From positions 133,142 to 167,351 of the forward strand of contig JAPLXL010000002.1 in assembly GCA_026396115.1 (NCBI GenBank): DNA of 34,210 nucleotides, written 5' to 3'. This document shows, piece after piece, positions 28,141-33,308 of this stretch; position 1 is the first letter of the stretch, and the number at the start of each line of letters is the position of its first letter. This DNA comes from Candidatus Nealsoniibacteriota bacterium (GTDB taxonomy: Bacteria; Patescibacteriota; Minisyncoccia; Minisyncoccales; RBG-13-42-11). The translations under genes and the position numbers were made by a program. Below the pieces are notes generated by a model, which did not search any database, was not told where the DNA came from, and saw only the letters and a list, made by a program, of their open reading frames with translations.

Positions 28141-28211
28141 TGCGGGGTCTGCTAATGGTAGGCAAGTGGCCTCTGGAGCCATTAATCTTGGTTCGAGTCC
28201 AAGCCCCGCAG
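28141..28211 (+). tRNA. tRNA-Gln (CTG)
   Basis: Acceptor TGCGGGG/CCCCGCA, anticodon loop CTCTGGA, T arm CTTGGTTCGAGTCCAAG, discriminator G. Confidence 0.93.
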
Positions 28212-28269
28212 CAGTCTAGTACTCGGTATAGAGTGACCAAGAGACCTTTAACACATCTTCATTGCCAAA

Positions 28270-29039
28270 TGAATAAGAAAATCAATAAAATTATTAATTT
28301 AAACAAAGAGCTTGCAAACAAAACTCAAGCATCTATTTCTGTAGTCTCTCGGTCTTTGGCAAAAACAAAGTTCAGATACACAAGCAAGGCACTTTTATCT
28401 TTTATTCCTAAAAGTGGTTATTTAAATAGTTCTATTTTAGATTCATATATCAATAAAAATATATATTCTGCTGGGATTTTGTTTCGTTCCATGATAGAGC
28501 ACAGTTTTAGACATTTATACATTTTTACAAGAGCATTAAATGAAAACAGCGATTCTATAGGTAATAAATACTACAATTCGCTCAAGGCTAATGAGGATCT
28601 TGAGTCTTTCCGTGAAATTAATAACTACAATAAAGTTGTTTATCCAGAAAAAACTAAATGGAGCACAAAAGGTAATCACAATAATTTAATTCGTAAGGCA
28701 GCAAAAGAGTTTCGTATTGAGCAAATTTTTTATTATTTAATAGGAAATAATAACGGTAACAACATTGAAATCGTAGATAGATTTAAAAAAGAATACTTGT
28801 TGGAAAGATTAATACAGTACACCGAATTATCATCCGGGGTTCATGGTGGTCCATTCGGTGAGTTGATGTTAGAAAAACTTCATAAAAGTAAGGTAAGTTT
28901 AGAAAAAAAATTGTATAAATTTGCTATGGATAGCTTTATACTCCATAAAAGCACAATCGAATCGACATATCTTTTTGCCTATCTAATGGATAGTAATATT
29001 CAAAAACATTATGAGGAGATCAAAAATCTTAATAAGTAA
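28270..29039 (+). CDS. Hypothetical helical protein, accessory gene downstream of tRNA-Gln
   Basis: MNKKINKIINLNKELANK…; the ORF-track start at 28140 runs through the tRNA and is not used. No family recognised. Confidence 0.65.
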
Positions 29040-29123
29040 GATTTATACAAAACTTATAATCACACTGCGACCGAGACGGGTCGGCGGGGTAGCCCCAAAA
29101 TAGCTGGATTTTTCCTCTAAGGA

Positions 29124-29149
29124 CTTGGTTCTAGACCGGGGCACACAGC
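29124..29149 (+). repeat. tRNA 3'-end-like repeat, copy A
   Basis: CTTGGTTCTAGACCGGGGCACACAGC; 23/26 to copy B (30405-30430), 19/26 to the tRNA-Gln 3' end (28187-28212). Confidence 0.6.
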
Positions 29150-29205
29150 AAAATTGACAGAATTCGACGATGGGTTACAAATCTAAAAGATTCTGAATTT
29201 TATCT

Positions 29206-29976
29206 ATGAATTTATCTTTTGATATAAAATTAGCTAATGAATATACAAGTTCTCCGCAGAAGATAAGAGTTTTGACGGAAGATTGGGTTGATAAACAAGC
29301 GTACTGCCCGAATTGCGGGCATTTGGATATTGATAAATATGAAAATAATAAGCCTGTTGCTGATTTCTTTTGCTCGAATTGTCGAGAAGATTACGAATTA
29401 AAAAGCAAAAAAGATTCTGTTGGGACAAAAATAGTTAATGGTGCTTATCGAACAATGGTTGAAAGGTTACGAAGTACGAATAATCCAAATTTCTTTTTGC
29501 TAAATTATGATTTGAGTGATTTTTCTGTTTTGAATTTTCTCGTTATTCCAAAACACTTTTTTATCCCCGAAATTATTGAGAAGAGAAAGCCACTTGCGCT
29601 AACCGCGAGGCGCGCCGGCTGGATTGGCTGTAATATTTTGTTGCAAAGCATTCCACAAACCGGAAAAATATTTTTTATTAAGGATAAACAAGTTGAGCCA
29701 AAAGAAAAGGTGCTTGCCGAATGGCAAAAGACACTTTTCTTACGAGAAGAAAAAGAAATAAAAGCGAAGGGTTGGTTGCTTGATATTATACGTTGTGTAG
29801 AGAAGCTCGGAAAGCAAGAATTTACGCTTGACGATGTTTATACCTCTGATAAGGAGTTGGGCAGGCTTCATCCCGAGAATAAACATATTAAGGCCAAAAT
29901 TCGTCAGCAATTACAGGTCTTACGCGATAAAGGTTATCTTGATTTCGTATCGAGTGGGTATTATCGCCTCGCATAA
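29206..29976 (+). CDS. dpnI: DpnI-like methyl-directed restriction endonuclease
   Basis: KIRVLTEDWVDKQAYCPNCG…NNKPVADFFCSNCREDYELKSKK…NNPNFFLLNY…RKPLALTARRAGWIGCNI…IKAKIRQQLQVLRDKGYLDF matches the DpnI layout from memory: zinc-binding PD-(D/E)xK domain plus C-terminal winged helix. Confidence 0.93.
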   Translation: MNLSFDIKLANEYTSSPQKIRVLTEDWVDKQAYCPNCGHLDIDKYENNKPVADFFCSNCREDYELKSKKDSVGTKIVNGAYRTMVERLRSTNNPNFFLLNYDLSDFSVLNFLVIPKHFFIPEIIEKRKPLALTARRAGWIGCNILLQSIPQTGKIFFIKDKQVEPKEKVLAEWQKTLFLREEKEIKAKGWLLDIIRCVEKLGKQEFTLDDVYTSDKELGRLHPENKHIKAKIRQQLQVLRDKGYLDFVSSGYYRLA

Positions 29977-29980
29977 ATTT

Positions 29981-30154
29981 ATGAATTACAAAACTCTTCA
30001 ATTTCAATACGACAAAATTTATTCTTACTTCAAAACCACTTGTGAGTCGTTTGATTTTTTGGAATGGGACGGGAAGACTTTAGAAGTTTGGAATGGAAAT
30101 AGGGTTAAAGAAATCTATAAATATAATGATTTGAAAAACCTAATTTTTAAATAA
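29981..30154 (+). CDS. Small hypothetical protein (57 aa)
   Basis: ATG 29981, MNYKTLQFQYDKIYSYFKTTCESFDFLEWDGKTLEVWNG…, 5 nt after the dpnI stop. Confidence 0.5.
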   Translation: MNYKTLQFQYDKIYSYFKTTCESFDFLEWDGKTLEVWNGNRVKEIYKYNDLKNLIFK

Positions 30155-30162
30155 AATTATTT

Positions 30163-30363
30163 ATGGAAATCAATCTCTCGCCATTTTTCGCAAAGTTTAT
30201 TTTGAGACTTATTCCTTACCGTTTATCTCATCGCGTTTTAGTTATGTGTAAAGGATATAGCGAAGATTACGAAAGTTTTACGGAATTGGTTTGGGAAGAT
30301 GATAAAGACTTGGATTTTTACAATACAGAAACCTATCCGCAATTTCAGTTATGGTATGTCTAA
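30163..30363 (+). CDS. Small hypothetical protein (66 aa)
   Basis: MEINLSPFFAKFILRLIPYRLSHRVLVMCKGYSEDYESFTELVWEDDKDLDF…. Confidence 0.45.
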   Translation: MEINLSPFFAKFILRLIPYRLSHRVLVMCKGYSEDYESFTELVWEDDKDLDFYNTETYPQFQLWYV

Positions 30364-30404
30364 CTCATTCGTTCTCCGAAAACCACATGGATTACCCTTA
30401 AAAC

Positions 30405-30430
30405 CTTGGTTCCAGACCGAGGCTCACAGC
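30405..30430 (+). repeat. tRNA 3'-end-like repeat, copy B
   Basis: CTTGGTTCCAGACCGAGGCTCACAGC; 23/26 to copy A. Confidence 0.6.
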
Positions 30431-30478
30431 CAACAAATTAAAGGTCGTAATCAATAAAAAAATAAAACATTAAAAAAT

Positions 30479-30580
30479 ATGCCAAAGTGTAAATGTCCGA
30501 AATGCGATAAAGAAGTGGAATGTAAATGCGTGTGTGAAGAATGCGGATGCGAATGCGAGTGTGAATGCAACCAAGAATAA
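30479..30580 (+). CDS. Metallothionein-like Cys-rich micro-protein (33 aa)
   Basis: ATG CCA AAG TGT AAA TGT … TAA = MPKCKCPKCDKEVECKCVCEECGCECECECNQE; 11 Cys in 33 residues; below the ORF-track size cutoff. Confidence 0.65.
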   Translation: MPKCKCPKCDKEVECKCVCEECGCECECECNQE

Positions 30581-30678
30581 GGTTCAAAAAATCGCCAATT
30601 CGGAGGTTTTTTGTTAAGATAAAATCATAAAAGAAAAAATTAAAATTTATATATATTTTAAAACAATCTTATTTTATT

Positions 30679-31089
30679 ATGAAATTTAACAAATTAATTC
30701 CTGAGTTAAGCGTATCTAATTTTGAAAAAAGTTTAAAATTTTATACTGAGATTATTGGATTTAAAATTGAATACAAAAGAAATGAATCTAAATTTGCTAT
30801 GATTTCTTTCCAAGGAAGCCAGATAATGATTGAAGAAGTCAATAATAATTGGAGTACAGGCAAATTAAAATACCCTTTTGGAAGGGGAATTAATTTTCAA
30901 ATAGAAGTTGATAAAATCCAACCAATTTTAGATAACTTTAAGAAACATAATTATCCAATTTTTATTGAATCTAAAGAAAATTGGTATAGGCAAGATAATC
31001 AATTTCTTGGAAATAAAGAATTTCTTGTTAAAGATCCTGATGGTTATTTGTTAAGATTTGCTGAAGATTTAGGGGCTAAACCTTTGTAA
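30679..31089 (+). CDS. Glyoxalase/bleomycin-resistance (VOC) family protein
   Basis: KLIPELSVSNFEKSLKFYTEIIGFKIEYKR…FLVKDPDGYLLRFAEDLG. Confidence 0.88.
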   Translation: MKFNKLIPELSVSNFEKSLKFYTEIIGFKIEYKRNESKFAMISFQGSQIMIEEVNNNWSTGKLKYPFGRGINFQIEVDKIQPILDNFKKHNYPIFIESKENWYRQDNQFLGNKEFLVKDPDGYLLRFAEDLGAKPL

Positions 31090-31325
31090 TTTTGCAGACT
31101 TTCTATATATTATTTGAGTGAACTTAGTTTTTAATACAGGACTTTTCTTGGAACTAAAAAAGATTTAAATCAGTTATTAAACAGGTTCTAACATCGTCCC
31201 ATAGGGACAGCACTTCTTCGTTTCCTTTGTGACGGAAGCTCATCAGTGCCTCCGGATCTATATAAAAAAGAAGAAGTCCCTGAGAAGTCCCGAGAGACAA
31301 CGAGGGACGACGAAGGGCATTATCT

Positions 31326-31574
31326 ATGTTTTATACTTATCTTTTAGAATGTGCTGATGATTCTTTCTATGTTGGTTGTACTAATAACTTAGAAAAACGG
31401 TTAAAACAACACAACGAATCAAAATGGGGAGCCCATTATACCAAGCTTCGCAGACCGGTTATCTTGAGGCGTTCAGAAGAATTTAAAATATTAAAAGAGG
31501 CGAGGCAGAGAGAGCACGAAATTAAAGGCTGGCGCCGTGAAAAGAAACTAGCCCTGATCAAAGGAAAAATTTAG
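31326..31574 (+). CDS. GIY-YIG nuclease family protein (UPF0213/YhbQ-like)
   Basis: FYTYLLECADDSFYVGCTNNLEKRLKQHN…GAHYTKLRRPVIL…AREHEIKGWRREKKLALI-type pattern. Confidence 0.9.
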   Translation: MFYTYLLECADDSFYVGCTNNLEKRLKQHNESKWGAHYTKLRRPVILRRSEEFKILKEARQREHEIKGWRREKKLALIKGKI

Positions 31575-31621
31575 AGGAAAACAAAATCGCCATTCGGGCG
31601 ATTTTTTGGTAAGGTATAAAT

Positions 31622-32197
31622 ATGAAAATATTAAAAGCGGAATTTGCCAAAGGGGTTATTGGCGATGATTACAGCTTGGGAAATAATTTGCCGCAGATTG
31701 CTTTTTTCGGCCGTTCCAATGTGGGAAAATCAAGCGTAATTAACTCCCTGGTTGATAGAAAAAATCTTGTTAAGGTAAGCAAAATTCCGGGAAAAACACT
31801 CAAAGCAAATTTTTTTCGCATTAATTATTCTTTTTATTTAGTAGATTTTCCGGGATACGGCTACGCCAAGCATTCAATGAAGGACCGCAACAAAATGATT
31901 AAGAGGATTTTTTGGTATGTGAAACATTCCAATGTCAGACCTAAGGCAGTTTTTTTAATTATTGACGCTAAAGTCGGTTTAACCGTTCTTGACCGCGAAA
32001 TGATAAAAATCCTTGAAGAAAACAAGCATCAGATTGTTATTATCGCAAATAAAATCGATAAATTAGGGAAGACGATCGCGGAAAAACAGCTTTTAACTAT
32101 TCAAAAAGAAGCGCCGTGCATATTTGTTTTGCCGTATTCTGCAAAAACAAAAGAAGGGAAAGACGAATTAACCCAAAAAATTGCGAGTTTTGTATAA
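31622..32197 (+). CDS. engB: Ribosome biogenesis GTP-binding protein EngB/YsxC
   Basis: IAFFGRSNVGKSSVINSLVDRKNLVKVSKIPGKTLKANFF, YLVDFPGYGYAK, IIANKIDKL. Confidence 0.95.
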   Translation: MKILKAEFAKGVIGDDYSLGNNLPQIAFFGRSNVGKSSVINSLVDRKNLVKVSKIPGKTLKANFFRINYSFYLVDFPGYGYAKHSMKDRNKMIKRIFWYVKHSNVRPKAVFLIIDAKVGLTVLDREMIKILEENKHQIVIIANKIDKLGKTIAEKQLLTIQKEAPCIFVLPYSAKTKEGKDELTQKIASFV

Positions 32198-32291
32198 AAT
32201 ATCGACCGAGACGCATCGGCGGGGAAATCAAAGAATCGCCACTTGGGCGGTTTTTTGGTAGAATAGGGTAATAATAATTAACTACACAAAT

Positions 32292-32558
32292 ATGTCTAAA
32301 ACATTTTTTATTATCATAGTGCTGGTTATTATCGTCGCAGGATGCTTGATTTATCTATGGGTAAACAAAGAACAGACCTGTTTGATTTCAGGAGGAACTG
32401 TTGCAACTTCTTCTTGCTGCGAAGCCACGGGAGGCTTCCCGAATACCTGCCTTATTGGTGCCTGCGGCTGCCCGCCCCAATACAGCCACGAGGTGAAAAT
32501 CTGTGACTGTGGAATGGATAAATGTTTTGGCGGAATTTTCTGTAAAAAAATTGAGTAA
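32292..32558 (+). CDS. Small membrane-anchored Cys-rich protein
   Basis: N-terminal TM then CCEATGGFPNTCLIGACGCPPQYSHEVKICDCGMDKCFGGIFCKK. Confidence 0.65.
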   Translation: MSKTFFIIIVLVIIVAGCLIYLWVNKEQTCLISGGTVATSSCCEATGGFPNTCLIGACGCPPQYSHEVKICDCGMDKCFGGIFCKKIE

Positions 32559-32619: not shown

Positions 32620-33147
32620 CTAGGGACAACACCACCGTGTCCAACTGCTTTGATGGCAACCCGCGTTATAAGCTTCACTACTTGAACGATAACAGTAACT
32701 CTTACAGTAGTATTGTGTAGAGTTGGGGCAGCAGTGCCCTTCTGTCCAACAATAACCTGGCGAACAGTGTTGGCATCCTATACTGACCTGGTTTCCCCCG
32801 TTGCCTCCGCCTCCATCTTCGCCATTTCCATTTCCTTCCCCGCCCTTAAAAGTTTCATAAAAATATTTACACATTTGGTCTCCGGTATTCGGATAGTTAC
32901 CAACAGCGCAATTATAACTGTACCAAACGAAATATAGAATCAAACCCAGAAGAAATATTTGAATACACGCTTTAATAATGTCTCTTACGATATATTTCGT
33001 AGGAGTTTTTACGGGGACCGGTGTTTTTTCGGGAGTTAATTGCTCTTTCGGAGCTTCAACTGGTCCGGCTAAATTAGCCCCGCAACTTTTACAAAATTTA
33101 TCATCTAGATTAACTTCTACTCCGCACTTTGGACAAAAATTCGCCAT
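32620..33147 (-). CDS. Zinc-ribbon / TM protein with Gly- and Cys-rich C-terminal domain
   Basis: MANFCPKCGVEVNLDDKFCKSCGANL (zinc ribbon), one TM, GGEGNGNGEDGGGGNGG linker, Cys-rich tail. Confidence 0.75.
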   Translation of the reverse strand: MANFCPKCGVEVNLDDKFCKSCGANLAGPVEAPKEQLTPEKTPVPVKTPTKYIVRDIIKACIQIFLLGLILYFVWYSYNCAVGNYPNTGDQMCKYFYETFKGGEGNGNGEDGGGGNGGNQVSIGCQHCSPGYCWTEGHCCPNSTQYYCKSYCYRSSSEAYNAGCHQSSWTRWCCP

Positions 33148-33308
33148 AATATTAATTCCTTTTATTTTAATAGATTTTCAATCCTATATTAATTTTAGTT
33201 TAAATTGGCACTTTGTCAAACAACGAATTAAACGATATGAAAAATCGCTAAGAGGGCGATTTTTTGGTAGAATAGGATAATAATTAAAATTAACCAATAA
33301 ACAAAAAT

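Follow-up and report, generated by a model that had tools for sequence, protein, structure and literature searches.

Within the 34,210-nucleotide stretch of Candidatus Nealsoniibacteriota DNA analysed here (the window), we demonstrate a 33-residue Cys-rich open reading frame (ORF), the signature of a bL32-type zinc ribbon inside it, with its statistics, and a predicted terminator hairpin behind it. We propose tentatively, at what we judge to be close to an even chance, that the ORF codes for a microprotein restricted to its lineage, with a minimal zinc ribbon as scaffold, which would most likely buffer or scavenge soft metal ions in the cytosol. The ORF is a plausible variant between a zinc ribbon and a metallothionein, with real doubt about its expression. 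If real, it would be among the smallest bacterial metallothioneins and would link the common zinc-ribbon module to metal buffering. Characterised bacterial metallothioneins are very few, and full-text searches of open-access literature turned up no description of one from the Candidate Phyla Radiation.

Cysteine-rich ORF and its predicted zinc-ribbon core

The ORF (30479..30580, + strand) runs from an ATG at 30479 to a TAA ending at 30580 and encodes MPKCKCPKCDKEVECKCVCEECGCECECECNQE, which contains 11 Cys (33%) at residues 4, 6, 9, 15, 17, 19, 22, 24, 26, 28 and 30, no His and an acidic net charge. The original prediction of a 33-residue ORF with 11 Cys was correct in both coordinates and sequence, and the CxC, CxxC and alternating CE motifs that it listed are borne out by the Cys positions (as alternating EC). 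The tail CECECEC (residues 24–30; 30548..30568, + strand) was read from the sequence, as were two in-frame 27-nucleotide units that are ∼74% identical (EVECKCVCE and ECGCECECE; 30512..30565, + strand) and may represent an internal duplication. A protein search found the ORF in single copy in its own genome.

Residues 5–23 (KCPKC-DKEVECKCV-CEECG), which cover the N-terminal two thirds, form, judging by sequence, a zinc ribbon of the type found in ribosomal protein bL32. The signature CPKC-x9-CxxCG (residues 6–23; 30494..30547, + strand) aligns with bL32 without gaps (KCPKCDKEVECKCVCEECG in the ORF and KCPKCGRPVLSHTVCSNCG in bL32), with the same nine-residue spacing between the CxxC halves. Compared with the bL32 of the same genome, the residues K, C, P, K, C, V, V, C, C and G are identical, which is about half of the 18–19 positions. 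The pattern CPxC-x9-CxxCG arises in 0.035% of composition-preserving shuffles; the looser zinc-ribbon pattern CPxC-x(7-12)-CxxCG, which the ORF matches with the exact x9 spacing, arises in 0.2%, or in 0.45% with the Cys positions held. The Smith–Waterman score against four bL32 proteins exceeds those of all 5000 shuffles, whether free or Cys-fixed, so that the similarity extends beyond the Cys residues; against another zinc-ribbon protein of the window the shuffle p value is 0.007–0.008. As bL32 was picked for comparison after turning up as a match, the shuffle p values are partly post hoc, and the fairer figure is that of the own-genome protein search, in which bL32 was the sole match besides the ORF itself (E = 0.011). 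Since the non-Cys residues also fit bL32, the match supports the strand and frame of the ORF as coding. The seven Cys outside the ribbon lie around it and after it (4; 15 and 17; 24, 26, 28 and 30).

No match to the ORF was found in Pfam, NCBIfam, PHROGs or the PDB sequences; curated zinc-ribbon profiles (e.g. PF13240) were among the Pfam families searched up to E = 10, where HMMER filters may suppress a hit. A single-sequence AlphaFold model (pLDDT 78.6, pTM 0.34) places strands at residues 3–5, 12–20 and 23–28 and has no fold match in the PDB; given this pTM and the lack of a PDB match, the model carries little weight.

Distribution and genomic setting

Protein searches of 99 relatives and of 384 class-level and 380 phylum-level genomes (overlapping samples) identified no homologue, nor did a search by Cys-spacing pattern of 247 genomes of the order, in which the matches look like shadows of other genes. 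The original prediction had looked to relatives for conservation or for a disrupted frame; neither was seen, in a sample without a same-genus genome. Apart from the ORF itself, the protein-search matches that were read, in its own genome and in relatives (L002, L003, L034 and L035), are all bL32. The genome searches were sensitive enough to pick up bL32, which is ∼50% identical across 20 residues, so that a homologue matching the whole ORF at this level or above would probably not have escaped them in the genomes covered. Exact-pattern scans are a weaker test of homology than these protein searches. The strict core KCKCPKC gave 0 matches across the genome contig collection, CKCxCxxCxCxC gave 26 across the whole collection with no homologue among them, and pattern scans of viral contigs returned zinc ribbons or unrelated proteins and no homologue, with KCKCPKC occurring at the zinc ribbons of viral-contig proteins. 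Plasmids and phages yielded no match by tblastn, which is weak evidence as the low-complexity filter was on.

The genome comprises 792 kb in eight contigs and is rated 100% complete; its size and gene content point to the Patescibacteria (Candidate Phyla Radiation). The window occupies the right end of contig C2. Upstream of the Cys-rich ORF are a DpnI-family endonuclease gene (29206–29976), a 57-residue ORF located between it and the Cys-rich ORF, and a 66-residue ORF (30163–30363); downstream are a glyoxalase-like gene (30679–31089), a GIY-YIG gene (31326–31574) and an EngB-like GTPase gene (31622–32197). In genome G008, which belongs to the same family, GIY-YIG comes almost immediately after tRNA-Gln(ctg), with a 181-residue ORF and then EngB behind it, whereas in the window ∼3.1 kb holding the Cys-rich ORF separate tRNA-Gln from GIY-YIG; in genome G012, tRNA-Gln and EngB are ∼10 kb apart. 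In view of the ∼3.1 kb that are extra relative to G008, the ORF, if a gene, is an accessory gene of a variable region. The corresponding variable insertion spot spans 28141–31300, from tRNA-Gln(ctg) to GIY-YIG/EngB, and is nearly empty in G008.

The 66-residue gene is present in nine of 246 genomes of the order, this one included, and is adjoined by DpnI in all of the others except G099, where it lies on a short contig piece. The Cys-rich ORF is found at none of the other loci of the 66-residue gene in the order. As the DpnI and 66-residue genes recur without it, linkage of the ORF to a DpnI cassette was rejected. The segment 29206–30363 (the DpnI, 57-residue and 66-residue genes) looks like a mobile cassette, of which the DpnI and 66-residue genes recur in scattered genomes of the order; the 57- and 66-residue genes are in swapped order in G008, and one copy of the 66-residue gene (L106; G099:C1:7312-7473) contains an internal TGA. 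Neither small gene has a match in PHROGs, nor the 66-residue gene in Pfam, and the glyoxalase-like gene has no match in 38 other genomes. An Rfam scan of the window returned RNase P and tRNAs only. Two other Cys-rich products are encoded nearby: an 88-residue ORF with an N-terminal hydrophobic stretch (32292–32558) and, on the opposite strand, a 175-residue zinc-ribbon protein that has a hydrophobic stretch and is rich in Cys at its C-terminus (32620–33147).

The genes neighbouring the Cys-rich ORF lie on the same strand, and its AT-rich leader resembles theirs. No promoter-like site was found in the gap upstream and no Shine–Dalgarno sequence precedes the ORF; most of the neighbour genes that were checked also have no obvious one. 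The hairpin with a T tract (30585..30613, + strand; z = −2.2, T6 in the 3′ arm) has a predicted folding energy of −9.4 kcal/mol, compared with −5.6 on the − strand, and is probably an intrinsic terminator; it is slightly longer than the hairpin originally predicted at about 30591–30612. This hairpin is a diverged copy of an element that is also present at 31583, 32236 and 33240. Straight after it, an extended −10-like site, TG-T-TAAGAT (30612..30620, + strand), can be read from the sequence and probably serves the glyoxalase-like gene; the other copies show the same arrangement of terminator and −10-like site. The four related + strand elements (30586–30625, 31583–31620, 32236–32265 and 33240–33275) each consist of a hairpin (A-tract TCGCC..GGCGA T6) with an extended −10-like TG[G/T]TA...T immediately behind it, an arrangement that resembles a fusion between one unit's terminator and the next unit's promoter.

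Alternative readings of the locus

The count of 11 Cys is far above simple chance. In 20 Mb of DNA simulated with order-2 and order-5 Markov models of the window, no open window of 33 residues contained more than seven Cys, and the next-best 33-residue window in the 167 kb contig, used as a background sample, also contained seven. Caution comes from real genomes, which are less kind than Markov DNA: frames with CxCxCxxCxCxC spacing that are unrelated to the ORF occur in 15 of 246 other genomes of the order (∼6%). Most of these frames consist of long C runs or have A, L, S and R linkers, without Lys/Glu linkers, and nearly all of them have the look of shadow frames over repetitive coding sequence. 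Since no other frame contains an ORF of more than ∼50 codons over the segment, the Cys-rich ORF is not spanned by a long gene, and its interpretation as the shadow of one was rejected. A non-functional or untranslated ORF, in which GAATGC-type repeats within a variable insertion yield a Cys-rich reading by accident, is a less likely but plausible alternative. It would account for the lack of conservation among the searched genomes, the position in an insertion spot and the GAATGC repeats with their 27-nucleotide duplication, and it gains from the ∼6% of genomes with unrelated Cys-rich frames. It fits less well with a ribbon match that rests on non-Cys residues too, with the exact framing by ATG and stop, the ordinary codon usage and the terminator-like hairpin that follows, or with the contrast to those other frames, which are mostly repetitive-gene shadows that do not share the Lys/Glu linkers.

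If instead the opposite strand were coding, the Cys frame would be the shadow of an antisense His/Ser-repeat peptide (HSHSHSHPHSSHTHLHS...). The synonymous codon score of this antisense frame (+4.9 bits) is as good as that of the Cys frame (an ordinary +2.7 bits), so that codon use by itself does not decide between the two; four of the five other frames are negative overall, the +1 and −0 frames strongly so (about −15 to −16 bits) and the +2 and −2 frames mildly. The Cys frame is favoured by its match to the ribbon, by its start at an ATG, by the direction of the neighbouring genes and by the stronger hairpin on the + strand: the antisense peptide would have only a TTG start, would end in an AT-rich stretch, would run opposite to the genes on both sides with a weaker hairpin on its own strand and would turn the sense-frame ribbon match into a coincidence. 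We consider it very improbable. A sense-strand product might also be a zinc ribbon that binds RNA, the ribosome or a protein, possibly derived from a bL32-like gene fragment, with the extra Cys being secondary. Many small nucleic-acid-binding proteins contain zinc ribbons, and the ribbon has exactly the spacing of bL32 and shares residues with it; however, the basic N-terminal part and the C-terminal part of bL32 are absent, the net charge is acidic, 11 Cys are more than a zinc ribbon needs and rpmF of the same genome gives no long exact DNA match to the ORF. We judge such a role improbable.

Proposed function and relation to known metallothioneins

Our preferred reading remains the metal-buffering zinc ribbon, for which we infer translation, metal binding, stoichiometry and physiological role as follows. 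Cys 6, 9, 19 and 22 would coordinate a single Zn(II) at a β-hairpin tip, with Cys4 beside the ribbon knuckle, Cys15 and Cys17 on the first hairpin strand and Cys24, Cys26, Cys28 and Cys30 on the C-terminal strand. Among Cys15, Cys17 and Cys19 and along the series from Cys22 to Cys30, the intervening residues are Lys, Glu, Val and Gly, so that a hairpin fold would place thiolates on one face and charges on the other. Additional Zn(II), Cd(II) or Cu(I) could be bound by the thiolate-lined face, for a total of ∼3–4 divalent ions for the 11 Cys. With one zinc in the ribbon and more ions on the additional thiolates, the protein would then be a metal buffer, by analogy with SmtA.

Partners for such a buffer were sought in the genome. 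No recognisable metal-handling gene lies beside the ORF, and a PF01022 search of the genome, with 14 of 14 controls positive, found no ArsR/SmtB-type regulator and hence no sign of SmtB/ArsR control. The genome encodes three P-type ATPases. One of 622 residues (L110; G000:C3:109000-112386) resembles metal exporters but has SCADDIAIATPLAL at the position usually taken by CPC in metal-exporting P1B ATPases; because CPC is absent from its usual place, a metal-homeostasis partner is not established. A further-reaching proposal is that a lineage-specific metallothionein arose here from a zinc ribbon by Cys enrichment and lets a small-genome, probably host-dependent bacterium without SmtA/ArsR buffer metals. 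We think this unlikely, though if true it would mean that metallothioneins can arise anew from ordinary zinc ribbons. The locus also illustrates that Cys-dense microproteins can escape gene finders and similarity searches alike.

The 33-residue ORF shows the small size, high Cys content and CxC/CxxC motifs of a metallothionein in the broad sense, for which binding of several metal ions in thiolate clusters would be a further hallmark. By sequence it falls outside the known bacterial family PF02069, which did not match it in Pfam scans up to E = 10 and was found nowhere in the genome by a search that recovered a Synechococcus control; with 11 Cys and no His, it also departs from the combined Cys and His ligands of that family. 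That it resembles no described bacterial metallothionein, as originally proposed, agrees with the lack of PF02069, Pfam, NCBIfam and PHROGs matches. The accompanying claim of metallothionein-like metal binding stands in part: metal binding through the Cys residues is the natural reading of the sequence, but the bL32-type ribbon had been overlooked, and in view of this N-terminal ribbon 'Cys-elaborated zinc ribbon' describes the ORF better than 'metallothionein-like'.

The likeness to bL32 (rpmF) lies in CPKC-x9-CxxCG with identical spacing; unlike bL32, the ORF has none of the remaining parts (the basic N-terminal one and the C-terminal one), carries seven extra Cys and is acidic. The mammalian metallothionein α domain has ∼11 Cys in ∼30 residues, and fungal metallothioneins of the CxC type carry repeated CxC; the ORF differs from both in having no CC pairs and no PDB sequence match, and the likeness is one of composition only. 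MymT, the mycobacterial metallothionein, is likewise very small and Cys-rich, but comes from an unrelated phylum and is likened to the ORF by description alone. A role of MymT in copper handling is cited in a passage of PMC7387436. In SmtA, a zinc-finger fold forms around one tight site, with four Zn in all (PMC10612145), and a passage of PMC7387436 citing Blindauer 2001 likewise describes a zinc finger within a metal cluster of four Zn. The ORF is similar to SmtA and BmtA (PF02069) in being small and Cys-rich, and in SmtA, too, a zinc-finger fold is joined to a metal cluster; the ORF differs in having a bL32-type ribbon in place of the SmtA zinc finger, no His and no SmtB/ArsR partner found. 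Our best reading by analogy is that the microprotein would work somewhat like SmtA, while being unrelated to it.
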